43,022 nucleotides of DNA. Source: Corynebacterium sp. Lineage in GTDB: Bacteria > Actinomycetota > Actinomycetes > Mycobacteriales > Mycobacteriaceae. The stretch spans positions 1 to 43,022 of the forward strand of contig JAUMZY010000017.1 of NCBI GenBank assembly GCA_030527885.1, given 5' to 3'. This document shows, one piece after another, positions 974 through 42,271 of the stretch (position 1 is the stretch's first letter; each line of letters starts with the position of its first letter). Both the position numbers and the translations under genes were made by a program. Under the pieces are notes generated by a model. It saw only the letters and a list, made by a program, of their open reading frames with translations. It ran no database searches and had not been told where the DNA came from.

Positions 974-1822
974 GTGCGCGACCTACTGGCAAACGCAACG
1001 GCCACACTAGCCCACGCTGGTGTGGCCTCCCCACGCCACGACGCCCACGCGCTTGCCGCCCACCTCCTCAACGTCGAACCACTCCAACTCCCATTCCTCA
1101 ACCTCACAGACCTACCCGACCAGCACGCTTTTCGACGCTCCTACGCCGAACTCATCGCGCGCCGGGCGGCCCGGGAACCCTTGCAGCATATTGTGGGCAC
1201 CGCTGCGTTTGGGCCGTTGATGTTGCGGGTGGGGCCGGGGGTTTTCATTCCCCGGCCGGAAACCGAATGGTTGGCTGACTGGGTGGTCACTGCCCTGGCG
1301 GGAACACCGCAGCCAATCGTGGTGGATTTGTGCGCTGGTTCGGGGGCGATCGCTGGGTTCATCGCCCAGGCTCGTCCGGATGCCACCGTGTACGCGGTGG
1401 AGTTATCCCCGGCAGCCTTGGAGTACACCCATGCGAATGTGGATCCGCTGGGAGTAAAGGTTGTTGCTGGTGACGCCACCGATCTGGGGGTGTTGCCGCA
1501 GGTGCAGGGGCAGGTTCATGCTGTGGTCACTAATCCGCCTTATGTGCCGCAATCCGATGAGCTGCAACCCGAAGTGTATGCGGACCCCGACATGGCGGTT
1601 TTCGCTGGTGCGGATGGGTTGGATCTCATCCCTGGGCTGCTGCCGGTGGCGCAGCGGTTGCTGCGGCCTGGGGGGATTTTTGCCTGTGAACACGATGATT
1701 CGCATGCGGTGGGCGTCGAAAAGCTGCTGCATGTTGCGGGATTTCGGGAGGTCAGAGGGCATCGTGATTTGACGGGGCGGCCGCGGTTTAGCACGGCGTG
1801 GACCGAATTAACCACAACCTGA
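974..1822 (+). CDS. prmC: Peptide chain release factor N5-glutamine methyltransferase PrmC/HemK
   Basis: PrmC methylates the Gln of the GGQ motif in release factors using S-adenosylmethionine. The GTG start abuts the prfA stop codon, so the two genes are almost certainly translationally coupled. The 282-aa protein has the helical N-terminal domain, the linker FIPRPETE (91-98), a SAM-binding loop DLCAGSG (118-124) and the diagnostic NPPY motif (187-190) that clamps the glutamine. Length is normal. Base composition changes abruptly within the gene: the first ~170 bases are very C-rich on the coding strand, the rest G-rich (see findings). Two copies of the 11-base repeated word lie inside it, at 1127 and, inverted, at 1714. 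Confidence 0.96.
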   Translation: MRDLLANATATLAHAGVASPRHDAHALAAHLLNVEPLQLPFLNLTDLPDQHAFRRSYAELIARRAAREPLQHIVGTAAFGPLMLRVGPGVFIPRPETEWLADWVVTALAGTPQPIVVDLCAGSGAIAGFIAQARPDATVYAVELSPAALEYTHANVDPLGVKVVAGDATDLGVLPQVQGQVHAVVTNPPYVPQSDELQPEVYADPDMAVFAGADGLDLIPGLLPVAQRLLRPGGIFACEHDDSHAVGVEKLLHVAGFREVRGHRDLTGRPRFSTAWTELTTT

Positions 1823-1880
1823 TAACAAGCTGTTAGTCTTAAGTATCGTTACCCCACGTTGATAAGGAAAATGAGCTACT

Positions 1881-2534
1881 GTGAGCAGGATTTATAACTG
1901 CACCTCAACCGGCGAAACCCGCGCTTTGGGTATCAGAGCCGCCGTAAACGTCGTGAAATCTGGTCGCCTCGTGGTGCTACCAACCGATACTCTCTACGGG
2001 TTGGGCTGCGACGCCTTCGATAACGATGCCGTCGCCCGACTGCTGGCCACCAAAAACCGGGGGCCGGACATGCCCGTGCCGGTGCTGGTGGGCAGCTGGG
2101 ACACCGCCCGCGGCCTCGTGCATTCCTACAACGACCAACTGCGCACGCTCATCGAAGCATTCTGGCCGGGTGGTCTGTCCATTGTGGTGCCGCAAGCACC
2201 ATCATTGGCCTGGAATCTGGGGGATACTCGCGGTACTGTCATGCTGCGCATGCCGCTGGACTCCGTTGCTATCGAACTGTTGCGCGAAACCGGACCCATG
2301 GCGGTGTCCAGCGCGAACATTTCTGGGCAACCCCCAGCGACAACCGCCGAAATGGCGCAGGAACAATTAGGCGACGAGGTCAACGTGTACCTCGACGGCG
2401 GGGAATCCACCGTGGGAGTAGCCTCCTCCATTCTTGATGTTTCTGGTCATCAGCCGCGCTTATTGCGGGAAGGTGCGATCTCTACCGAACGCATCGCCGA
2501 AGTATTAGGCCTAGAGCCGGAGAGTCTGCGCTAA
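1881..2534 (+). CDS. ywlC: L-threonylcarbamoyladenylate synthase (Sua5/YwlC/YrdC family)
   Basis: This family makes threonylcarbamoyl-AMP from threonine, bicarbonate and ATP, the first step of t6A37 modification of ANN-decoding tRNAs. The 217-aa protein shows the early family block PTDTLYGLGCDA and the mid-protein block VSSANISGQPPATT; the closing segment VASSILDVSGHQPRLLREGAI is also typical. It has only the YrdC core, without the long C-terminal Sua5 domain. The GTG at 1881 is chosen because AAGGAAA at 1864-1870 gives a normal spacing of about 10 bases; an ATG at 1871 is out of frame and stops quickly. It follows prmC after 58 bases and abuts the next gene, suggesting one operon. Confidence 0.93.
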   Translation: MSRIYNCTSTGETRALGIRAAVNVVKSGRLVVLPTDTLYGLGCDAFDNDAVARLLATKNRGPDMPVPVLVGSWDTARGLVHSYNDQLRTLIEAFWPGGLSIVVPQAPSLAWNLGDTRGTVMLRMPLDSVAIELLRETGPMAVSSANISGQPPATTAEMAQEQLGDEVNVYLDGGESTVGVASSILDVSGHQPRLLREGAISTERIAEVLGLEPESLR

Positions 2535-3725
2535 ATGGGTGCGGGCGTCGCCGGTGTACCGCTACGGGAATTAGGCCTCGTGCTGCTCGTAGCACTATCG
2601 CTTGCATATCTCACCACGGGAATTGTCCGCTACTTCATGGTGCGGTCAAATTGGATGACCGAAATTCGGGAGCGCGACGTGCACACCATGCCCAAACCAC
2701 GCATGGGCGGCGTCGCCATGTTCACCGGCTTCGTCGGTGCCGTCTTCCTGGCCGACCAATTACCCGCCTTGACCCGCGGTTTTCAACCTATCACCCCAGA
2801 AATGAATGCGGTGTTGTGGGGTGGCGTCATCATTGTCATCCTGGGCGCCATTGATGACCTGTGGGAATTGGACGCGCTGACCAAAATCATCGGCCAATTC
2901 TTAGCGGCCCTCATCATGAGCATGCTCGGCCTGAACTGGACCCTGCTGTACGTCCCCTTCGGCGACGGCACCACCGTTCTCCTGGACCAATTCTGGTCGG
3001 TGGTATTAACAGTGCTGTTCACCGTCACGCTGATCAATTCCATCAACTTCGTCGACGGGTTGGATGGCCTGGCGGCCGGGTTGGGAATGATCGCCGGCGG
3101 CTCCATCTTGCTGTTTTCCCTCACCATTTTGCATGACCAAGGCGGCATGGTTTCCGCCTACCCACCAGCAATTATTGCCGCCGCTTTGGTGGGCATGTGC
3201 GCTGGTTTCCTGCCGCATAATTTTGAGCCCTCCCGGATTTTCATGGGGGATTCTGGTGCCATGCTGATCGGGTACTTACTGGCCGCCGCCTCTACCTCAG
3301 CTAGTGGAAAAATCAACATGGGGCTGTACGGCGCGGTGGACATGGTGGCGTTGCTGTCGCCGATCATCGTGGTGTTGGCGGCGGTGTTCATTCCACTGTT
3401 GGACCTGGTCATGGCGGTGGTGCGGCGGCTGAGCAAAGGGCAATCGCCGTTCAGTGCCGATAAGAAGCACCTGCATCACCGCCTGCTTACGCTGGGGCAT
3501 TCGCACCGAAATGTGGTGTTATTGCTGTACTCCTGGGTGTTCGTGGTGGCCGTGGGGGCGGTGGCGTTTTCCATGGTGCCGCCGCTGTGGGCCACTGGGG
3601 GAATGGTGGTGGCGCTGATCATCGCCACCATTGCTACCCGCGAGCCGGTGAAGCGGGCGCGGGCGCAGCGGTCCGAGCGGCCCAAACGGGTGATTAGCCA
3701 TCGCCGAGGTAGCGGGCTGGGGTGA
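2535..3725 (+). CDS. wecA: Polyprenyl-phosphate GlcNAc-1-phosphate transferase, WecA/MraY family
   Basis: This multi-spanning membrane enzyme transfers a sugar-1-phosphate, probably GlcNAc-1-P, from its UDP form to decaprenyl phosphate. In mycolate-making actinobacteria this starts the linker between arabinogalactan and peptidoglycan. The 396-aa protein has about ten hydrophobic segments and the family motifs in order: KPRMGGVAM (54-62), the magnesium-binding pair DD (107-108), NFVDGLDG (171-178), FMGDSGAM and the His-rich HLHHR loop. The C-terminus ends in a basic tail, as in the actinobacterial homologues. The ATG directly follows the stop of the preceding gene. GlcNAc as substrate is inferred from family and organism, not read from the sequence. 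Confidence 0.9.
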   Translation: MGAGVAGVPLRELGLVLLVALSLAYLTTGIVRYFMVRSNWMTEIRERDVHTMPKPRMGGVAMFTGFVGAVFLADQLPALTRGFQPITPEMNAVLWGGVIIVILGAIDDLWELDALTKIIGQFLAALIMSMLGLNWTLLYVPFGDGTTVLLDQFWSVVLTVLFTVTLINSINFVDGLDGLAAGLGMIAGGSILLFSLTILHDQGGMVSAYPPAIIAAALVGMCAGFLPHNFEPSRIFMGDSGAMLIGYLLAAASTSASGKINMGLYGAVDMVALLSPIIVVLAAVFIPLLDLVMAVVRRLSKGQSPFSADKKHLHHRLLTLGHSHRNVVLLLYSWVFVVAVGAVAFSMVPPLWATGGMVVALIIATIATREPVKRARAQRSERPKRVISHRRGSGLG

Positions 3726-3806
3726 TGCGGTGTGGTGGCTCGGTGCGGCGATGCGTTGGAGCGACTCGTTGCGGATTGGTTGCAGCGGGGGAGTGGCGGT
3801 TGTGCA

Positions 3807-3848
3807 GCAGTGTTTATGTTGGTGCGTGGATTGTTTCATAAACACTGC
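3807..3848. other. Perfect 12-bp inverted repeat before the atpI-like gene
   Basis: Arms GCAGTGTTTATG (3807-3818) and CATAAACACTGC (3837-3848) are perfectly complementary with an 18-base spacer. No run of T follows on either strand, so a standard intrinsic terminator is unlikely. The right arm ends about 24 bases before the likely start codon of the next gene. It could be an operator, a leader hairpin or a U-less terminator of the wecA operon. What is certain is the symmetry, not the role. Confidence 0.6.
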
Positions 3849-3871
3849 GCCATTAGGTAGGATTGCCCTTT

Positions 3872-4327
3872 GTGACTACCAAAAATGATGATGAGCAGCA
3901 GCAAGCGACTCGCAAACCGGCGTCGGAATACGACGATCCCCGTCGCCCACTTGTTCGAGCATTACGCTTGGGCTCATACGGGTTGCTGGGGGTAACCCTG
4001 ATCTCCCTCATGGCATGGGGCGGCTTCAAAGGCCTACCCGGCATCTGGGGTGTACTGCTCGGCGCAGCCATCGGCGGGGGCTTCATGCTGGCCACAGTCA
4101 TTAGCGTGCTCATGACCTCATCCACCAGCCCGACCGTCACCGGGGCCGTGGTGCTGGGTGGCTGGCTAGTCAAGCTTGTGGTCTTGCTTTTGGTGTTGAT
4201 GCTCATTCGGGACATGACATTTTATTCCTCCGTGGCGCTATTTGTCACGATGCTTTTAAGTCTGATCGTGGTGTTGGTGACAGAGGCCTACGGCGTGATC
4301 ACGTCACGTGTGACATATCTGAACTAA
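3872..4327 (+). CDS. atpI: AtpI-like small membrane protein (ATP synthase protein I family)
   Basis: The product is about 151 aa with a charged, disordered N-terminus and four hydrophobic segments, two of them separated by a Gly-rich turn (GVLLGAAIGGG). AtpI-family proteins precede Fo genes in many bacteria and are linked to assembly of the c-ring; that role here is inferred from size, topology and position 0.7 kb upstream of atpB. Start choice: AGGTAGGA at 3855-3862 is nine bases before GTG 3872, whereas the TTG at 3863 touches it, so GTG is preferred. Sequence similarity within this family is weak, so the name is less certain than for the neighbours. A perfect inverted repeat lies just upstream. 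Confidence 0.78.
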   Translation: MTTKNDDEQQQATRKPASEYDDPRRPLVRALRLGSYGLLGVTLISLMAWGGFKGLPGIWGVLLGAAIGGGFMLATVISVLMTSSTSPTVTGAVVLGGWLVKLVVLLLVLMLIRDMTFYSSVALFVTMLLSLIVVLVTEAYGVITSRVTYLN

Positions 4328-4335
4328 ATTGCATT

Positions 4336-4346
4336 GCTTTTCGACG
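4336..4346 (+). repeat. Intergenic copy of the GCTTTTCGACG word
   Basis: Exact copy located nine bases after the atpI-like stop codon. Its presence outside coding sequence shows that the word is not simply a result of codon choice. Confidence 0.7.
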
Positions 4347-4472
4347 CTTCCCGCTGCCTGTGGTCTGTTTGCGGTCGGCCAGCGCATCCCGCGCTGGTAG
4401 CAGCTTGGATATGACTAAGTTGCAGAAGTGACAACTTTAAGTCGGTAAATTTTCTATTCGGATGCTCCGCTA

Positions 4473-4494
4473 ACCCCTTAAAGGGGTAGTTTTG
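4473..4494 (+). terminator. Weak hairpin followed by T-run
   Basis: ACCCC at 4473-4477 pairs with GGGGT at 4483-4487 around a 5-base loop, followed after AG by TTTT. The stem is only five pairs (seven if the loop shrinks to one base), so termination of the atpI transcript here is possible but unproven. Confidence 0.35.
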
Positions 4495-4667
4495 TATTGG
4501 AGTGGGGTTGGGGGTATGCCGCCTCACGCCCAAGATATATCACAATTTAGTAACGTAATTCCCTGGTGGGGTTACTCGGTTGTTATGTGGTGGGGTGTGC
4601 TGACCGCGCTGTTAAAAGCGGTAAAGCTGCATCGGGGGAGTGTGACAATATTTCCACTATTCCGCGA

Positions 4668-4700
4668 AAACGGGGGTAAATATTACCCCCGTTTACTTTT
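4668..4700 (+). terminator. Perfect 12-bp hairpin in the atp leader, terminator or attenuator candidate
   Basis: AAACGGGGGTAA (4668-4679) and TTACCCCCGTTT (4683-4694) form a perfect stem with a three-base loop, followed by ACTTTT. The stem is strong and the T-run short. It lies about 300 bases before atpB and upstream of the best promoter-like element, so it may end a short upstream transcript, or may act on atp expression if transcription starts further up. Confidence 0.5.
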
Positions 4701-4802
4701 GTGGTACAGCTCATAATTTAAAGTTCGTGCCTGTTCACTGGGGGGTGAGAAACGCGGGGGTAATTCTGAACTGTCAATATGTGGGAAAACTTGGGTTTAT
4801 GC

Positions 4803-4814
4803 TGCTATTCTAAT
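4803..4814 (+). promoter_or_regulatory. Extended minus-10 candidate for the atp operon
   Basis: TG-C-TATTCT at 4803-4811 fits an extended minus-10 element, but no good minus-35 is seen at the right distance. It is the best candidate I can find between the 4668 hairpin and atpB, and would give a leader of roughly 170 bases. The main support is position. Confidence 0.3.
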
Positions 4815-4989
4815 CGGTGGGTTAATGAGGAATATCTGCTTCCTATCAAGGGATGTTCCATGCACAATCCCCTGTGGCCGCCATGCTGATGTGCGACGGA
4901 GTCCGTGGTGGTTACAGCGAGTTTATAGACATCCATCGCACCGCAAGAATCTATGCGGAATTCTTGCGGCCCGAACACGGGAGAGAACG

Positions 4990-5811
4990 CTGAGCGTTAC
5001 AACATTATCCTTGGAGGGGGAATTCCATAGCCCCTCAATGGAGGAAGAGTTTTTCCCGGGTGAATCGGCCAACGAATTTATTTGGGTAGACCACCTCACT
5101 GGTGGGTGGTTCAACCTGGATCGAATAATGTTGGTCCGTTTGGTGATGGCTGCGATTCTGATCATTTTCTTCGTAGTGGCAATGCGCAAACCAAAGTTGG
5201 TTCCAACTGGTATGCAAAACGTCGCGGAGATCATGCTCGATTTTGTCCGAATTCATATTGCAGAAGAAATCCTTGGTAAGAAAGAAGGCCGCCGGTTCTT
5301 TGCCGTGCTGGTTCCCATTTTCTTCCTGGTGCTCTTCCTCAATGCCTCTTCGGTCATTCCATTCCTAAACATTTCCTCCAATGCGCGTGCTGGCATGCCA
5401 TTTATCTTGGCAATGTTTGGGTATATCGCTTTCATCTATGCAGGTGCAAAACGTTACGGCTTCTTCAAATACATGAGGAGCTCCGTGGTTGTTCCTAATC
5501 TGCCATGGCCACTACATATTTTGGTCGTGCCGTTGGAATTCTTCTCCACATTCATTTTGCGCCCCGTTACGCTGACTGTTCGTTTGTTGTCCAATATGTT
5601 GGTTGGACACATCATCTTGGTATTGCTGTTTGGCGCCACCAACTTCTTCTTCTGGCAAATGAATGTTTGGACTGCGCTGTCGGCACTAACCCTGGTGACA
5701 GGCATTGCCTTCACACTCTTTGAGTGCTTGGTGATCTTCCTCCAGGCGTATATCTTTACCTTGCTGGTAGCCGTATATATCGAATTATCGCTACATGCGG
5801 ACGAGCACTAA
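4990..5811 (+). CDS. atpB: F1Fo ATP synthase subunit a
   Basis: Subunit a is the membrane stator that carries protons to the c-ring. The protein has the family's hydrophobic helices and the essential-arginine block RPVTLTVRLLSNMLVGH, and ends in the conserved IFTLLVAVYIELSLH. The start is unusual. The conserved N-terminus (EGEFHSPSMEEEFFPGE) begins before the first in-frame ATG of the core (5038). Upstream in-frame candidates are TTG 5011, with no ribosome binding site, and CTG 4990, with GGGAGAG at 4979-4985 four bases away. I place the start at CTG 4990; TTG 5011 fits the usual family start nearly as well. A longer frame from ATG 4825 adds a Cys- and Arg-rich segment unlike subunit a and is rejected. 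Confidence 0.93.
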   Translation: MSVTTLSLEGEFHSPSMEEEFFPGESANEFIWVDHLTGGWFNLDRIMLVRLVMAAILIIFFVVAMRKPKLVPTGMQNVAEIMLDFVRIHIAEEILGKKEGRRFFAVLVPIFFLVLFLNASSVIPFLNISSNARAGMPFILAMFGYIAFIYAGAKRYGFFKYMRSSVVVPNLPWPLHILVVPLEFFSTFILRPVTLTVRLLSNMLVGHIILVLLFGATNFFFWQMNVWTALSALTLVTGIAFTLFECLVIFLQAYIFTLLVAVYIELSLHADEH

Positions 5812-5833
5812 CCTCACAACTCACACATTCACC

Positions 5834-5852
5834 GCCCACAACAAAGGTGGGC
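5834..5852 (+). other. Intercistronic hairpin between atpB and atpE
   Basis: GCCCAC (5834-5839) pairs with GTGGGC (5847-5852) around a 7-base loop, 24 bases before the atpE start codon. No T-run follows. Subunit c is needed in many more copies than subunit a, so a processing or stability element at this position is reasonable, but that is inference. Confidence 0.4.
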
Positions 5853-5858
5853 ATTTAG

Positions 5859-6122
<264 letters not shown>

Positions 6123-6152
6123 TGCTAACCACCATACGAAAGTAAAATATTC

Positions 6153-6722
6153 ATGACGAATATCATCATTTATCTGGCCGAGGGCAGCAGCCACGGGGCA
6201 ATCAACCCCCTGCTGCCTAAGAACTATGATATTAGTTGGTCGATCGTCGTACTCATCGTTGTTGGACTGATGTTCTGGAAGCTGGTGCTACCAAAATTCC
6301 ATGAAGTCTTGGAGCAGCGCGAAGAACTCATCAAGGGTGGCATTGAAAGCGCCGAAAAGGCCCAGGATGAAGCCAAAGCAGCACTAGAAAAGTACAACAA
6401 AAAGCTTGCTGATGCGCGTACTGAAGCCGCAGAAATCCGAGAAGCCGCCCAAGAAAAGGGCAAGCAGATCGAGGCTGAATACAAGGCAAAAGCAACTGAA
6501 GAGAGTGCGCGCATCGTCGAAAACGGCGAGAAGCAACTGTTGGTCCAGCGTGAGCTGGTGGTGGCAGAACTACGTCGTGAGATGGGGCAGCATGCCATTG
6601 ATTTGGCTGAAGCCCTCGTGGGCGAACAGCTATCAGCAGATGTGAAACGTTCCGGCACAATTGATCGTTTCCTAGGCGAACTTGATTCTGCCTCTGGAAC
6701 CCAATCATCAGCAGGAAAGTAG
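6153..6722 (+). CDS. atpF: F1Fo ATP synthase subunit b
   Basis: Subunit b is the peripheral stalk that links subunit a to F1. The 189-aa protein has a single membrane helix around residues 28-46 ([19 protein letters not shown]) followed by a long, charged coiled coil rich in Ala, Glu and Lys, ending in a short Ser-rich tail. It is a free subunit, with no fusion to delta as found in mycobacterial operons. It overlaps nothing and atpH starts six bases after its stop. Confidence 0.95.
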
Positions 6723-6728
6723 GCACAC

Positions 6729-7547
6729 ATGCACGCAGCAAGCCGCGAAGCACTGGCATACGTCTCGGAATACTTCGATGTCACATCGCAGAAACAAGAC
6801 AACCCAGTTGCCGTAGCCGCCCAAACGGGTGCCGAGCTGTTCGATGTGGTGGAGGTGCTCGATGCAGATCGAACCCTGCGAATCACCGTGGCGGAAGCCT
6901 CCCTCCCAGCCGAACAACGCTCAGGAATTGTCTCTGCTGTATTTGCCGGAAAAGTGTCCCAGTACACCTTGGAGTTGCTCATCACGGTGACTCGCCAGGT
7001 GTGGTCCACCCCCCGGGAATTACGCACCGGTTTGGTCCTGCTGGGACGTCGAGCACTCTTGCGTGCCGCTGAGCATCAAGGTCAACTCATCCAAGTAGAA
7101 GAAGAACTCTTCCGCTTGTCGCGGTTATTACTGTCCGAAACGCAGTTGACTTTGCTTCTCGACGAGCGCAGTGCGGATCGCGTCGCAAAGCGAGATCTGC
7201 TAGCAAAAGTGCTGTATGGCAAGGTGACCGCAGTGACGGAAGCCCTAGCATTGCAAGCCATTGGCCGCCCAGAACACAATGCCATCGACGATATCAATGC
7301 GATATCCGAATTTGCCGCACAACTCCGCGGCAGCGATGTAGCGTTCGTGCTCACAGCTTATCCGTTGACGGATGCGCAACGCCAGGCACTGACCACAAAG
7401 CTAGAGGGCATTTACGCTCGCCCCATCAGTCTGCACACCGAGGTTGATCCCAGCCTCATTGGTGGTGCAATTATTCGAGTCGGCGATGAAGTAATTGACG
7501 GCAGCACCTCGGGTAAACTCGAACGGCTGCGCGCCCAACTCGTGTAA
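6729..7547 (+). CDS. atpH: F1Fo ATP synthase subunit delta, long actinobacterial form
   Basis: Delta sits on top of F1 and joins it to the peripheral stalk. At 272 aa it is about 90 residues longer than E. coli delta; the extra part is N-terminal. The C-terminal block DPSLIGGAIIRVGDEVIDGS and LERLRAQL is the delta/OSCP signature. Long delta subunits with separate b subunits are what I expect in corynebacteria. ATG 6729 follows the atpF stop by six bases. The variant word GCTTCTCGACG lies at 7154. Confidence 0.95.
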   Translation: MHAASREALAYVSEYFDVTSQKQDNPVAVAAQTGAELFDVVEVLDADRTLRITVAEASLPAEQRSGIVSAVFAGKVSQYTLELLITVTRQVWSTPRELRTGLVLLGRRALLRAAEHQGQLIQVEEELFRLSRLLLSETQLTLLLDERSADRVAKRDLLAKVLYGKVTAVTEALALQAIGRPEHNAIDDINAISEFAAQLRGSDVAFVLTAYPLTDAQRQALTTKLEGIYARPISLHTEVDPSLIGGAIIRVGDEVIDGSTSGKLERLRAQLV

Positions 7548-33336: not shown

Positions 33337-34050
33337 TTATGAGGTGTGGGCGCTTTGCAGCGGCCAGGAAACATTCACATCACTGGCATCCCGCCCTTTG
33401 CCCTCCAAATACTTTTTAAAATGACTCTGCGACCGGAAATACCCGACTGCCTGAAACTCCATCAACTGTTCCAAATTCTGCTTGGTGATCTGCGAAGCAA
33501 ACCGCTTCTTCGCCTGCACCCACGCGATACGGGCAGCCGCCAACGCATCACTCGTAGCCTCATGCGCATTCTCCAATTTGACGTGATACTCCTCGCACAG
33601 ATCCGTGAGGGTGCGCTTGCCCTTGCGGTACGGATCCAGGAGCTTATCCATAACAAAGGGGTCATACACCGGGCCGGTGACCAAAAACTCCGGCTCCAAA
33701 GAATGCAACACCGTGAGGTCATAAGCAGCGTTATACACAATCACGGTGTAACCATCCGCCCAGGCCTTATTAATAGTGGCGATGGTATCCGCCAAAACAT
33801 CAGCATGCGGGCGGCCGTTTTCCCGAGCGTATTCCGTGGTAATGCCATGCACCTTGGTGGCAGCCTCGGGGATTTCTACACCCGGGTCCGCCAGTAATTC
33901 CTGCGGGTGGGCGCCACCGGAATCAATATGCACCAAGGCAGACGTGACGATGCGGGCTTCAAACGGGTTGGCTGAGGTGGTCTCTAAATCGAAGCTTAAA
34001 ACCTTGAGGGGGTTGAAAGGTTGGGTAAAAACTTCCGCAGGAATATTCAT
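33337..34050 (-). CDS. DnaQ-like 3'-5' exonuclease (DEDDh)
   Basis: A 237-aa nuclease of the DNA polymerase III epsilon fold. The first motif is FDLETT (D21, E23), the second is in YNAAYDLTVL and the third, HEATSDALAA, has the His and Asp of the DEDDh type. The C-terminal 50 residues are a small extra domain. It stands alone, so proofreading within Pol III versus a repair role cannot be decided. AAGGTGG lies seven bases before its ATG. It is the last core gene before the AT-richer accessory block. Confidence 0.88.
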   Translation of the reverse strand: MNIPAEVFTQPFNPLKVLSFDLETTSANPFEARIVTSALVHIDSGGAHPQELLADPGVEIPEAATKVHGITTEYARENGRPHADVLADTIATINKAWADGYTVIVYNAAYDLTVLHSLEPEFLVTGPVYDPFVMDKLLDPYRKGKRTLTDLCEEYHVKLENAHEATSDALAAARIAWVQAKKRFASQITKQNLEQLMEFQAVGYFRSQSHFKKYLEGKGRDASDVNVSWPLQSAHTS

Positions 34051-34174
34051 AACTAACCACCTTAAAGCACTGGGTGGACATGGGGGTTATTGGTGTGGGG
34101 GCGTCTTTGTACACAAACGCCATGCTGGTTGCTATTTGTACTGACTTGGCATCTAATCCCAAACAGTGTAACCC

Positions 34175-34207
34175 TTGTAAAACCTGCTAAGCTACATAAT
34201 CTAGCAG
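34175..34207 (+). promoter_or_regulatory. Promoter candidate with dyad for the accessory operon
   Basis: TTGTAA (34175-34180) and TAATCT (34197-34202) are separated by 16 bases and point toward the methyltransferase gene. An inverted repeat CTGCTA (34184-34189) / TAGCAG (34202-34207) surrounds the minus-10 region. No regulator gene is seen in the operon. Confidence 0.42.
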
Positions 34208-34254
34208 TGCATTAGCGTGCTTTATTAGGCCTAAACACAGGAGGTTTCCCAGAG

Positions 34255-36971
34255 GTGGCACGGTTAAACCTAAAAGCAGTGGAAGCTCGTGTCTCACCAC
34301 TAGGAAACCGCGAAAACTATGACCGAGAGTTCATCTATGAGCTACTCACTGCCTATGGGCGATCAAAAAGTAGCATCACGCGGCTCCGATCCGGTTCTCT
34401 CAACGTCGCTGCCGATCCTGAACATGAAGTTGCCCAGAAAAACGTGGTGTACTTCCGCGAGGTATCCCAAGACTCTAACATCCTGGAGGCACTGGAAAAT
34501 CTACGCACTGCCGCGCATCTAGTTCGTTTTAATCCCCGTTTTGTCATTGTCACCGACTACGTGGAACTGGTGGCATGGGACATGAAAACGAGAGAAAACC
34601 TCTTCATTCCCATCCGCGATATTGCGAAACACTTCACCTCTTCCTGCCCTGGGCTGGGATGGAAAAAGCACAATACGTTGCCGAGGCCCATGCAGATGTT
34701 AAAGCTGCTGAGCGAATGGGCAAGCTTTTCGACGAACTATTGCAAGCTAACCATGCCATCATGGATGACCCCACCCAGCGGCACGGACTCAACGTATTCT
34801 TTACCCGCCTACTTTTCTGCTTCTTCGCCGAGGACACCGGCATTTTTATCACCAATCAATTTACCAACGCGGTAGGATCTCACACCCAGGAAGATGGCTC
34901 CGATGTCCAAGAATTCCTCACCGACCTCTTCGATGCACTCGACACGTTAAAGCCTGAAGAAAAACCAGCACACCTTTCTGCCTTCCCTTACGTGAACGGC
35001 CGGCTTTTCAGCAAAGACAACACACTCACAGTGCCGGCATTTACAAAACACGCACGCAAGCTTCTGATTAATCTGGGCACACTCGATTGGCAAGAAATCA
35101 ACCCCGATATTTTCGGGTCCATGTTCCAAGCCATTGTTACCCCAGGTAAACGCTCAGATCTAGGTCAGCACTACACATCAGTGCCGAACATCCTGAAAAC
35201 CATCGAACCACTCTTTTTGGATGGGCTGAAGAAAGAACTTGATGCCAGCTTCGACAACCCCAAAAAGCTAGAGAAGCTCCTCGATCGGATTGCCGCCATT
35301 TCAATCTTTGATGCGGCGTGCGGCAGCGGTAACTTCCTCATCATCGCCTATAAAGAACTACGCCGGCTGGAACATGCCATCCTGGAACGCTTGATCGAAC
35401 TAGATCCTAAGCGTGCCGCACTTTTTAGCATCTCGCGCATCAACATTGAGAACTTCTATGGCATTGAGATTGACGACTTCGCCGTGGAAGTAGCAATCCT
35501 GTCACTGTGGATTGCTAAACACCAAATGAACCGAGAGTTTAAAGATAAATTCGGCGTGGACATCCCCTTGATCCCACTGAAAGAAACAGGCCGCATCAGA
35601 GTGGGGAATGCTGCTTGGGTGGATTGGAATCAGGTGTGCCCGAATGATGGCACCTCGGAGATTTATTTGATTGGAAATCCGCCGTACGTGGGTTCAAGCA
35701 TGCAAAGTAAAGAACAAAAGGCTGACTTTGATCTGGTTTTTGGTAACCGGCCGTTTTCAAAAAAGCTAGATTATATTGCCCTGTGGTTTGTTAAAGGTTC
35801 TGATTATATTCGGGGTACACATGCACAACTGGCTTTTGTGAGCACAAATTCCGTTGCTCAGGGTGACCATGTGGGATTGATGTTTCCCACAGTTCTTGCA
35901 GGTGGTATTGAAATTGGTTTCGCCTATACCTCATTTAAATGGGAGAATAACGCGAAACGAAATGCTGGGGTCACAGTCGTTGTTATTGGTTTGCGTAATC
36001 TCTCCGCAAAGCCCAAGTACCTTTTCCAAGATGATCTGTGCATAGAAGTCAAGAATATTAACGCCTACTTGGCAGATGCCAGGGATGTCATTGTAACGTC
36101 TCGAAAAAAAAGTCTTTCTCCTAACTTAAAACAAATGCTTAAGGGGAGTCAGGCAACGGATGGTGGGGCATTGATTCTCGAAGCCCCAGAGGCAGAAACA
36201 TTAAAATCTGAAGCTCCTGAAGCAGCTCGATTCCTCAAATCTTTCATGGGGGCAGAGGATTACATTAAAGGTAAAGAACGCTATTGTTTATGGGTTACAG
36301 ATGCGGAAAGGCCTGCCGCAGAGACCATACCTCAGCTGAGTCAGCGTTTTCAAAGAGTTGAGGCAATGCGTTTAGCCAGCAAAAAGAAAGCCACCCAGCT
36401 ACAAGCTGCTAATTCACATAAATTTACAGAACCACGTTATAAACCTACAGATGCGATCATTGTTCCCAGTGTTTCTTCTGAGCGGCGTGAGTACATTCCC
36501 ATAGGTTATGTGGGGCCTGGGACAGTCATATCAAATCTTGCTTTCACTGTATACGATGCTGAGCCTTGGCTTTTTGCTGTCCTGACGTCAAAAATGCACA
36601 TGGCTTGGGTGCGTTCTGTCGGTGGCAAATTGGGGACTGGTTATCGCTATTCCAACACCCTTGTATATAACACCTTCGTGTTCCCTCATATCAGCGCCCC
36701 CATGAAGGAAAAACTGACTCAGGCAGCACTGCGGATTCTAGACGTCCGTGAGTACCACTGTGAATTCACCCTGGCTGAGCTGTACGATCCCGATAAAATG
36801 CCAGACAATTTGCGCGAAGCCCACCATGCAGTAGATGTGTTGGTTGATTCGCTTTACTCTCAACGCTCTTTCGAAACCGATGAGGAACGCCTTTCCGTGC
36901 TTTTCGATCTTTACCAGAAAATGATGACCGAGGAAGCCGCAAACAAGCCTGCAAAAAGGAGAAGGAAATAA
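34255..36971 (+). pseudogene. MmeI-like N6-adenine DNA methyltransferase, frameshifted near 34639
   Basis: Restored, the protein is about 905 aa. GTG 34255 has AGGAGG ten bases upstream. The N-terminal part (to about residue 128) runs to IRDIAKHFT; the frame then changes and continues FLPWAGMEKAQY, so one base appears lost around 34639-34641. Beyond it come the MmeI-type helical region (LNVFFTRLLFCFFAEDTGIF), SAM motif I DAACGSGNF (about 353) and NPPY (about 475), typical of N6-adenine methylation, then a variable target-recognition region that is the most AT-rich part. The PD-ExK nuclease of true MmeI enzymes is not visible at the N-terminus. The frame is open otherwise, so the break is recent or a sequence error. 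A separate translation from ATG 34575 would lack the first 128 residues. Confidence 0.85.
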
Positions 36972-36974
36972 GCC

Positions 36975-38960
36975 ATGAGCGCGCATGTTGAAAATTTCAT
37001 GAACATTGTTGATGTGAAATACGCCCAGGCCGGTACATCAGTGAATACCGATGAACTAGGAATGCGTGAAATGCAGCGGCGCGTTTATGAACAGCGCACT
37101 GCACAGTACCTACTGGTAAAAGCGCCACCGGCATCAGGAAAATCACGTGCCCTCATGTTTGTCGGCCTGGATAAACTCTTTAACCAGGGACGCAAGAAAG
37201 TCATCGTTGCAGTGCCTGAGCGTTCCATCGGGGCTTCGTTCAGTTCCACGAATCTTACCTCCCATGGATTTTTTGCTGACTGGAAGGTAACGGAAAAGAA
37301 TAACCTTTGTACTCCGGGCTCCTCCACATCCAAAGTTGATGCATTTGTTTCTTTCCTCGAAAGCACTGATCCCATATTGGTGTGCACCCATGCGACACTA
37401 CGGTTTGCGTTTGAGAAACTTGCACCTGATTCTTTCAACGGCACAGTGCTGGCCATTGATGAATTCCACCATGTTTCAGCTGATCTAGATTCCAGCCGTT
37501 TAGGTGGGCTCTTGCGTGATGTTATGGTTGGTTCCGATGCGCACATCGTGGCCATGACTGGATCCTATTTCCGGGGTGATAGTGTGCCTGTGCTCTTGCC
37601 AGAGGACGAAGCTAAATTCACCCCGGTTACTTTCAACTACTACGACCAGCTCAATGGTTACCAATACCTTAAAGCGCTCGGTATCGGCCATCACTTTTAC
37701 CAAGGGCGCTACACTGATGCCATTCATGAGGTATTGGATTTAGATAAAAAGACTATCATCCATATCCTTAGCGTTAATTCTGGTGAATCCACCAAAGACA
37801 AATTGGAAGAAGTAGGGCATATCCTCGACGCCATAGGTACGGTGGTAGGCACAGAAGACCATACCGGGATCATTAAAGTGCAACGTCATGACACCAGAAA
37901 AATCATTCGGGTGGCTGACTTGGTTGATGATACGGATTACAAAGTACGAGCAAAGACCTTGCACTACTTAACATCAGTGGCGTCTAAAGAAAAAGACGCT
38001 GTTGACATCATCATTGCTCTGGGGATGGCTAAAGAAGGATTCGACTGGCCGTTTGCTGAACACGCCTTGACAGTTGGCTACCGCGCTTCATTAACGGAGA
38101 TTATTCAAATCATTGGGCGGGTTACCCGTGATTCGGAAGGCAAGACCCGTGCCCAGTTCACCAACTTGATCGCCGAACCTGATGCCGAACAAGATGAAGT
38201 AACAGTTTCGGTGAACAACATGCTCAAAGCAATTACCGCTTCACTGCTCATGGAGCAGGTGTTGGCCCCAAACTTCAAGTTCAAAACCAAACATGGTAAT
38301 GACGATCATGCTGAACCAGGCACCTTGAAAGTTAAGGGGTTTAAAGAGCCATCAACCTCGCGGGTGCGGCAGATTGTTGACACTGATTTGAATGACTTGA
38401 AGGCAAACATCTTGCAAGATGATTTCTTTGCTAGAGCTGCTGCTGGTGGCATTGAGCCTGAAGCCACCAACAAGGTGCTTATCCCCAAGATCATTCGGGA
38501 ACGCTACCCAGATCTGAGTGAGACGGAAGTTGAAGAAGTACGTCAGCACGTCGTGGTGGACTCTGTGATTAAAAATGGTGAGGTTAAGGAAGTCGGTGAC
38601 AAACGCTTTATCAAGTTGGCAGAGAAGTTTGTCAATATTGATGAGATCAATATCAACTTGATCGACACAATCAACCCCTTCCAGCGGGCTTTTGAAGTGC
38701 TTTCAAAGTCGGTAACCTCCAATGTGCTGCGTCTTATTTCTGACACAATTGCGGCTACTCGCATTGATATCACCTTTGAAGAAGCCGAGGCCTTATTTCC
38801 AAAGATTCAAAAATGGGCAAAAGTCAACGACAGAAAACCAGATAGGCAGTCTGCCGACCCGGTTGAGAAACATTACGCAGAAGCTCTTTTAGTCATAAAG
38901 AAGAATATTTTAGTCTTGCAGAAGAAAAAACAGGAACGAGATAAGCAGCAGGAAGGCTAA
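36975..38960 (+). CDS. Superfamily 2 DEAD/DEAH-type helicase of a defence operon
   Basis: The 661-aa protein has an intact SF2 motor: Walker A PPASGKS (51-57), Walker B DEFH (162-165), motif III MTG (194-196) and motif VI QIIGRVTR (378-385). The remaining 270 residues are helical, with a Lys-rich end, and have no domain I recognise. It starts three bases after the methyltransferase stop and ends three bases before the nuclease gene, so it is the middle gene of one operon. It probably moves along or remodels DNA to activate the nuclease, by analogy with Type I and III restriction; that is inference. It is the only one of the three genes without a frameshift. Confidence 0.88.
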   Translation: MSAHVENFMNIVDVKYAQAGTSVNTDELGMREMQRRVYEQRTAQYLLVKAPPASGKSRALMFVGLDKLFNQGRKKVIVAVPERSIGASFSSTNLTSHGFFADWKVTEKNNLCTPGSSTSKVDAFVSFLESTDPILVCTHATLRFAFEKLAPDSFNGTVLAIDEFHHVSADLDSSRLGGLLRDVMVGSDAHIVAMTGSYFRGDSVPVLLPEDEAKFTPVTFNYYDQLNGYQYLKALGIGHHFYQGRYTDAIHEVLDLDKKTIIHILSVNSGESTKDKLEEVGHILDAIGTVVGTEDHTGIIKVQRHDTRKIIRVADLVDDTDYKVRAKTLHYLTSVASKEKDAVDIIIALGMAKEGFDWPFAEHALTVGYRASLTEIIQIIGRVTRDSEGKTRAQFTNLIAEPDAEQDEVTVSVNNMLKAITASLLMEQVLAPNFKFKTKHGNDDHAEPGTLKVKGFKEPSTSRVRQIVDTDLNDLKANILQDDFFARAAAGGIEPEATNKVLIPKIIRERYPDLSETEVEEVRQHVVVDSVIKNGEVKEVGDKRFIKLAEKFVNIDEININLIDTINPFQRAFEVLSKSVTSNVLRLISDTIAATRIDITFEEAEALFPKIQKWAKVNDRKPDRQSADPVEKHYAEALLVIKKNILVLQKKKQERDKQQEG

Positions 38961-38963
38961 CCC

Positions 38964-40150
38964 ATGAGCCATGAGCATGACTCTGTAGAAGAAGCACTCG
39001 CCAAACTGATTGAGAGTGACACCGATGGCTTGCTGGACATACCGGAAAAACCCAAACCGGTGACTTCCAGCGATCGGTTGGAGCGTGGTTTTTTAGAAAT
39101 CGTGGAATTCTATCGGCAGCATGAACGCATTCCCAGTGCTGACACACGGGAGATTTTTGAACGCAAACTGGGTGCCCGCCTTGAGGGATTTCTTGCTAGT
39201 GAAGCCAGGGCGCAGGCTGTTGCCCATTTAGATGAGTTCCAGTTGCTGCAACCACAAGCTGCGCCAACCACTCTCGAAGAGATACTCGATAGCGATATTC
39301 TTGACCTTTCGGATGATGATGCGGATATTTTCAACATCTCAACTTTGCCCAAGGTGAAACCCAACATTGATGATGACGTAGCGAAACGGGAAAAGGCGAA
39401 GGACTTCCATAAATTCGAAGATCTGTTCAAAGCTAAACATGCAGAGCTTGCTGCTGGAGATATGATCCTTGAGCCGTTTGGGGGAGTGTCAACCATTGAG
39501 GCAGGCCGGTTTTACGTTCTGGGGGTGTCATGCTGTTCGTTGCTGAGGTTGGTGATACCGAGTTCAAGCATGTGGGAGGCAGGGAACGGCCGAAAGAGCG
39601 GTTGCGTGTCATCTTTGAAAACGGTACAGAGTCCGCCATGTACCGAACCTCACTGGCTAATCGGCTGGGGGAGCAAAATGGTAGGTCAGTTGTTCGAGCC
39701 GACCACACTTTCGATATCACGGAAATCGGTGACGCTGACGTAAAGGCAGGGCATATCTATGTGCTGCGCTCGCTAAGCCAGAACCCGGACATTGCGAATA
39801 TCCCCAACCTGCACAAAATTGGTTTCTCCACCACACCAGTAAAAAAACGTATTGCTGGGGCAACAACGGATCCGACGTACCTCATGGCGCCGGTCGAAAT
39901 TGTGAATGACTACGAGGTCTACAACCTCCGCCCATCAGTGTTGGAAAAATTACTGCACCACGTTTTTGCAGAAGTGCGCCTTGACCTCACTCAGATTGAT
40001 GCTAAAGGTAACCAGTACAACCCATCTGAATGGTTCGTTGTGCCTGCTGCTGTGATTGACCAGGCCATTAAGATGATTATCAGCGGTGACATCACTGACT
40101 TCATTTATGATAAAACCACGCAGCAGCTTGTGTGGTCCAAGACTACCTAA
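38964..40150 (+). pseudogene. GIY-YIG nuclease (T5orf172/Mug113-like), frameshifted at a G run
   Basis: Restored, the product is about 395 aa. The N-terminal region (residues 1-185) is acidic and helical, without a known domain. The C-terminal domain is GIY-YIG-like: HIYVLRS in the first strand, KIGFST in the second, KKRIAG with the catalytic Arg, and EKLLHHVF with the metal-binding Glu. The frame breaks at five consecutive G (39521-39525): reading FYVLG, one more G would give GGVMLFVAEVG and continue in frame. Without it, translation continues in the wrong frame to 39743 and lacks the nuclease. A downstream start at ATG 39530 could in principle make the C-terminal 206 residues. Proposed role: the cutting subunit of the adjacent modification system. 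Confidence 0.82.

Positions 40151-42271
<2,121 letters not shown>

Follow-up and report, generated by a model that had tools for sequence, protein, structure and literature searches.

The best-described systems resembling the locus considered here are built around the dnmA (yeeA) gene of Bacillus subtilis. In that organism, an MmeI-like N6-methyladenine (m6A) methyltransferase lacking a nuclease motif is followed by a helicase (yeeB) and a T5orf172/GIY-YIG protein (yeeC) (PMC7261158; PMC9973331). According to these 2020 and 2023 reports, the synteny of dnmA, yeeB, and yeeC is conserved in other bacteria, and DnmA generates m6A in the sequence GACGAG. An earlier suggestion that the dnmA cluster is a type I-like system is reported in PMC7261158. 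PMC9973331 attributes the first notice of the genes adjacent to dnmA to Morgan et al. (2009) and remarks on the uncharacterized neighbors of the dnmA family. A trio with the described content and order lies within a 43,022-nucleotide stretch of Corynebacterium sp. DNA (contig JAUMZY010000017.1, hereafter the window), and this trio is probably a decayed member of the published family.

The initial annotation of the window, which was made from its sequence alone, had linked exactly this set of genes to no named system. That impression must be corrected, and the possibility of a new system type was rejected because the dnmA-yeeB-yeeC cluster has already been published. No study solving the mechanism of the trio was found in the literature searched, with bioRxiv and most subscription journals lying outside that search. 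Comparisons across the family might nevertheless provide useful hints regarding how these three proteins divide their work.

A methyltransferase, a helicase, and a GIY-YIG protein

Open reading frames (ORFs) and Pfam matches place the three genes on the plus strand in the order MmeI-type adenine methyltransferase (M), SF2 helicase (H), and T5orf172/GIY-YIG nuclease (N), where each letter denotes both gene and protein. The two intergenic gaps are 3 bp each, as stated in the initial annotation. All five MmeI domain models (MmeI_N/hel/Mtase/TRD/C) match M, including that for the target-recognition domain (TRD), while H matches DEAD helicases and N matches T5orf172/MUG113, that is, GIY-YIG. The second ORF of M also aligns with the sequence of the MmeI structure (PDB 5HR4) with 570 bits over residues 39-792.

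In MmeI, residues D70, E80, and K82 are the catalytic residues of an ExK nuclease. These align to E, K, and T in a profile of 19 M family sequences, and the M protein of the window, read by transfer through the family alignment, carries E, R, and V at the same places. The initial observation that M has no visible nuclease motif thus holds for the family profile as well. An active single-chain type IIL enzyme was considered and rejected, because the ExK nuclease residues are missing from the N-terminal domain (N-domain) of M. A search of restriction profiles, which had been proposed as a check, does assign the second ORF of M to a PADLOC model named 'Type IIG restriction enzyme-methyltransferase' (935 bits, its best model), but this name is unfitting because the nuclease residues are missing.

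Distribution and conservation of the trio

Relatives of the helicase are present in at least 587 database stretches, as judged by a scan of genome contigs. The best 80 of these, ranked by helicase similarity and so not a random sample, have 61%-78% helicase identity and come from many phyla, including one archaeal metagenome-assembled genome. M is found in 72 of the 80 loci, N in 78, and both in 70, and all 10 incomplete loci run off a contig end. In the eight loci without M, the helicase lies within 2 kb of the contig start, and in the two without a full N match, the contig ends within 0.7 kb of H with the start of N visible. With both partners beside the helicase in 70 of 80 loci, the initial concern that the three genes might not be conserved together elsewhere was not substantiated. 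One locus (L100, positions 1156-7016) is an exception to the kept order, with helicase, nuclease, and then methyltransferase, so that M lies downstream from N.

Plasmids also carry relatives of the helicase, which is matched by 264 plasmid records (153 of them over at least 80% of the query), and two partial helicase matches were found among 50,697 phage records. A trio of annotated full-length genes is present on the Escherichia coli plasmid pEC96-32kb (L183), where toxin-antitoxin and IS91-family genes lie nearby. Klebsiella and Enterobacter plasmids match the helicase as well, and a plasmid relative of the helicase family in NC_019327, found with the helicase of locus L099, bears the annotation 'YeeB'. 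In one genome (L074; G168:C1, ~644-659 kb), the trio lies ~9 kb from a type I hsdR gene, which likely marks a defense island. Given the number of stretches and plasmid records matched, the trio is common, and its helicase is highly conserved.

Within the genus, 23 of 151 genomes matched the helicase, and 20 of the 151, including the window's own genome, carry the family. Three genomes (G025, G119, and G121) were rejected as carriers because they gave weak matches (19-22 bits) to other helicases. One of the same-genus copies (L184, in genome G018) is 100% identical to the Corynebacterium hylobatis locus L026 in all three proteins.

Target-recognition domains diverge freely

Mean pairwise identity is 0.68 for the helicase (95 sequences plus the window), 0.56 for the methyltransferase domain, 0.44 for the nuclease (94 sequences), and 0.40 for the TRD (63 sequences), values that come from differing sequence sets and depend on approximate domain borders. 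Of the 1770 pairs formed by 60 complete sets, 1768 have lower conservation in the TRD than in the methyltransferase domain. Helicase and nuclease identities track each other with a rho of 0.86 over these 1770 pairs and 0.74 within the genus. The corresponding values for TRD and helicase are -0.10 in 19 actinobacterial sets (Mantel p 0.76), 0.23 in the 41 other sets, and -0.01 within the genus (78 pairs from 13 intact copies), whereas the other domains of M give 0.51-0.80, 0.60-0.78, and 0.68-0.82, respectively.

Because the TRD diverges independently of the helicase and nuclease, specificity appears to be lent by M. If the cutter recognizes no target by itself, changes in the TRD would be expected without matching change in H or N. 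Across 37 sequences, the putative catalytic residues of the nuclease are invariant. The N-terminal half of the GIY-YIG proteins also contains two recurrent short, acidic '(I/L)xxDxxGLL'-like stretches (alignment A2), through which a partner, for example the helicase, could bind. The domain of M that tracks the helicase best in both larger sets is the dead N-domain (partial 0.59 and 0.49), a weak hint that H might dock on this domain.

Copies with a disrupted methyltransferase gene

Another set of clues comes from the 19 same-genus copies known besides that of the window, of which 17 were examined; the other two (in G013 and G122) are remnants with partial helicase matches. All three genes are open in 13 of the 17 examined copies, and thus in 13 of the 19 known. 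In L189 and L192, a Mutator-family and an rve-type transposase gene, respectively, lie inside M, and both H and N are open. Locus L199 retains part of M and has an rve-type transposase gene inside H, and L200 has no M match and part of H.

For a plain type II pair, loss of the methyltransferase before loss of the nuclease would be harmful. The cutter of this family seems harmless without M, as judged by the two copies that keep H and N open beside a broken M. The finding that B. subtilis grows normally without dnmA (PMC7261158) would fit an M-dependent cutter, if the H and N proteins of that strain are active at all. Overall, the free TRDs and the transposase-broken M genes point to a dependent, nonspecific cutter, which is a proposal that can be tested with intact copies.

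A proposed type I-like mechanism and its alternatives

We favor, with a probability of roughly 0.65, a type I-like, ATP-driven restriction enzyme in which M reads, H moves, and N cuts. In intact relatives, M would read an asymmetric site via its TRD and mark one adenine, on one strand. When an unmarked site is met, M would engage H, which would then move on the DNA using ATP and carry or deliver N, and N would cut while showing little or no sequence preference itself. Cutting is predicted to depend on two sites, because marking of one strand would leave one of the daughter duplexes unmarked after replication, an argument borrowed from type III enzymes. As the counterpart of the MmeI nuclease without its active site, the N-terminal domain of M may be a docking surface. 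The proposed reading and M-dependence steps rest on sequence comparisons, whereas complex formation, translocation, and cutting are steps that we infer. The initial annotation suggested that cutting has passed to a separate GIY-YIG protein, with a helicase interposed, and this idea is likewise supported by family-wide data, namely the missing motif, the conserved trio, the free TRD, and the broken-M copies. Also consistent with a role in defense, Vibrio crassostreae strains with deletions of dnmA and yeeB show heightened sensitivity to certain phage subclades (Piel et al., as described in PMC9973331). The genes found between M and H, described below, speak for the mechanism as well, since they match PADLOC defense models and have relatives in type I regions.

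Several observations weigh against this type I-like mechanism. Under the conditions tested in B. subtilis, the cluster protected against none of three phages and did not restrict plasmid transformation, and the authors called it a relic (PMC7261158; PMC9973331). The activity of the trio is in doubt because this laboratory strain showed no restriction, and relic status in B. subtilis also weakens the argument from normal growth without dnmA. Other phage subclades of V. crassostreae were unaffected by the deletions (PMC9973331), and the literature searched yielded no biochemistry of H or N. Furthermore, just two copies show a transposase-broken M beside open H and N genes. A weak tie between TRD and helicase is evident in the group of 41 sets (Mantel p 0.012), and sliding windows show that free divergence extends beyond the TRD, with its start already within the C-terminal half of the methyltransferase domain. 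Care must also be taken because pairwise identities are not independent data points, and because within the genus it is the spacer that tracks the helicase best (0.82 vs 0.69 for the N-domain).

For their own strain, the B. subtilis authors concluded that the methyltransferase is an orphan, given altered expression of some genes in addition to the missing phage protection and transformation barrier (PMC7261158; PMC9973331). If this were true of the family, regulation of genes through m6A would be the selected function, with H and N as leftovers, as the broken or remnant state of the window copy and six other same-genus copies might suggest. This explanation is improbable, since H is the most conserved protein (0.68 vs 0.56 for the methyltransferase domain, from differing sequence sets), N retains its invariant putative catalytic residues, and all three genes are open in most other same-genus copies (13/19). 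Moreover, the target of a regulatory methyltransferase should stay the same, yet no part of M is less conserved than the freely varying TRD. Slightly less probable still is a noncleaving defense similar to BREX or DISARM, wherein M marks self while H and N block phage replication without site-directed cutting of unmodified DNA. M does match DrmMI (120 bits) and, weakly, PglX (24 bits), and Bacillus phages show no avoidance of the DnmA motif (PMC9973331). However, M resembles MmeI far more closely (570 bits), the putative catalytic residues of N are retained, and no PglZ/BrxC or DrmA/B-like gene is evident among the operon genes or 11 other window genes scanned, three of which had no NCBIfam match.

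A separate question concerns the window copy itself, for which the initial annotation had assumed whole M and GIY-YIG genes. A functional copy should have each of its three genes open in one frame, whereas in the window H alone is open throughout (661 codons), and M and N are each split over two overlapping ORFs in different frames (Table 1). Because of these splits the copy is probably decayed, which is the simplest reading, with assembly error as a possibility. Methyltransferase motif I of the window (35307-35339) reads FDAACGSGNFL, with Ala where relatives have Pro, and this is possibly another sign of decay; all 66 relatives in which the motif was recognized read DPACG, whereas 23 of the 89 M sequences, including 5'-cut M pieces of the first genus loci, gave no motif I match. 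It is unlikely that the frame breaks are assembly errors and that the organism carries three intact genes forming a working member of the family. In favor of this reading, the genome is 53% complete and assembled in 25 contigs, the helicase frame is fully open, and the catalytic part of N is conserved, in that the family-invariant G, Y, K-x-G, R, E, and H all have counterparts in its second ORF. Even so, there are two frame breaks in the ~6-kb insert and none in the four flanking genes compared (mnmA, its downstream neighbor, the exonuclease gene, and ligA), each of which aligns in one piece to relative L105. The frame-crossing stretches hold no run of more than five identical bases (by eye), and the Ala in motif I again sets the window apart from all 66 scored relatives.

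Additional genes between M and H

The interval between M and H exceeds 300 bp in 28 of the 72 loci with M (in one of these, L070, it is the tail of a broken M) and is at most 100 bp in 43, while the gap between H and N is never more than 271 bp in the 80 loci. Of the ORFs mechanically picked from this slot, 53 of 54 are on the strand of the operon. Interval ORFs of L017 and L070 were left out of the slot proteins as tails of broken M, and that of L031 was kept, although it has no Pfam match and may be spurious.

Pfam matches were obtained for 12 of 19 slot ORFs scanned, and these include AlbA_2, RhuM, Fic, Bro-N, AAA_13, AAA_15, KAP NTPase, M78 peptidase, and Abi_C. All 10 slot ORFs scanned with PADLOC gave matches, three of them weak or partial and seven strong (PDC-S05, PDC-S06 plus PrrC at 66 bits, PDC-S13, PDC-M59A, SoFic, AbiJ, and Old). 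PDC matches among the slot genes are in part circular evidence, because PDC models were found via their embedding in defense systems (PMC12988326). A Sulfurovum slot gene (L079, 2787-4964) encodes an RloC/PrrC-like AAA_13 protein between M and H, whose sequence includes a Walker motif and a CPFC hook and, close to the end, an R-x3-E-x34-SH stretch. The x34 spacing falls just outside the x36-52 given for RloC (PMC2610378). The presence of this gene in the trio recalls PrrC, which is linked to a type I system.

Relatives of slot genes were found in eight of 20 type I HsdR regions, two of these eight being weak or distant (L160, E 3.5e-6; L155, ~8 kb from hsdR), vs none of 18 other regions of the same genomes, which came from eight genomes at round coordinates and were unmatched for defense islands. 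The 20 regions were drawn from 27 HsdR places over the cut-off, and two are shortened by contig ends. Defense genes embedded in type I systems are known (PMC12255303). A slot holding other genes (RhuM, Fic, AlbA-type, RloC-like) in the present family is possibly new, although it may already be covered by Payne et al. (2024), from which the PDC models come.

The broader proposal suggested by these findings, to which we give even odds, is that the family constitutes a 'split MmeI' class, with a nuclease-dead, type IIL-like M serving as the interchangeable reading head of a conserved helicase and GIY-YIG engine. The M-H junction would then be a docking bay for second-line defense genes, including an RloC-like anticodon nuclease that maybe guards the restriction complex as PrrC guards EcoprrI. 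The slot indicates where to seek further defense genes and a coupling of restriction to suicide responses. At the level of the family, the free target domains, the transposase-broken M genes beside open H and N genes, and the slot genes are all worth following.

Surroundings of the trio in the window

The trio is a ~6-kb AT-rich insert between an exonuclease gene and ligA, which are ~6.2 kb apart in the window. In all 10 same-genus genomes examined (among 12 relatives with a ligA match), the exonuclease gene adjoins ligA with ~45 to 1570 bp between match ends, and neither M (second ORF as query) nor H matched at the junction, in agreement with the insertion proposed initially. The block had also been described as AT-richer than its neighbors. 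Its GC content (~0.45-0.51) is indeed lower than that of both flanks (0.57-0.66 upstream and 0.54-0.62 downstream), but equally AT-rich DNA lies elsewhere in the window, at 4.5-6.5 kb and at 11.5-13 kb (near 0.48-0.50). Obvious repeats bounding the insert were rejected, since none were detected in 33900-34400 and merely scattered short imperfect repeats were seen over 33950-40350. NCBIfam matches were obtained for seven of 10 other window genes scanned, including atpA, glgB, and mnmA.

Table 1. Features of the trio and its border genes, in window coordinates
Feature	Position	Strand	Description	Evidence or remarks
Exonuclease gene	33337..34050	-	Left border host gene, dnaQ-like 3'-5' exonuclease	NF005927, 308 bits
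M, first ORF	34255..34875	+	MmeI_N domain, nuclease-dead	GTG start; out of frame near 34.65 kb; PF20464, 48.7 bits
M, second ORF (other frame)	34575..36971	+	MmeI_N end, spacer, methyltransferase domain (GNPPYVG), TRD, C domain	PF20473, 327 bits; PF20466, 256 bits
H	36975..38960	+	SF2 DEAD-type helicase, 661 aa, single open frame	Motifs APPASGKS, IDEFHH, QIIGRVTRDS
N, first ORF	38964..39743	+	N-terminal part of GIY-YIG nuclease	No Pfam match above cut-off; aligns to residues 13-198 of intact relative
N, second ORF (other frame)	39530..40150	+	T5orf172/GIY-YIG domain	PF13455, 48.5 bits; PF10544, 45.3 bits
ligA	40199..42271	+	Right border host gene	

Comparison with known systems

Several known systems resemble parts of the trio. 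M shares all five domain models with the type IIL enzyme MmeI (5HR4), but it is missing the ExK active site, and the trio has separate helicase and GIY-YIG proteins. Type I restriction-modification systems (HsdR/M/S) have in common with the trio a probable division of labor, and relatives of the slot genes occur in type I regions. The type I HsdR protein has its own nuclease domain, whereas the trio uses GIY-YIG, and the motor and nuclease of the trio are separate chains. Neither an HsdS specificity subunit nor an HsdR fused motor-nuclease was found in the operon by ORF, Pfam, and NCBIfam analysis. Separate methyltransferase, helicase, and nuclease proteins are also present in ATP-dependent restriction enzymes of the CglI/NgoAVII type. 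The best PDB sequence match of H, at E = 0.02, is to LlaBIII (4XQK), a type ISP enzyme, which is one chain of 1578 aa in the PDB entry rather than three proteins. Resemblance to BREX and DISARM is confined to the methyltransferase.

The closest known system remains DnmA-YeeB-YeeC, with the same order and content: an M protein without a nuclease motif, an SF2 helicase directly downstream, and then a protein with a C-terminal T5orf172/GIY-YIG domain. Both loci also have low GC content and are probably mobile. The Corynebacterium locus differs in its host, in its location, and in the frame breaks that split its M and N genes.

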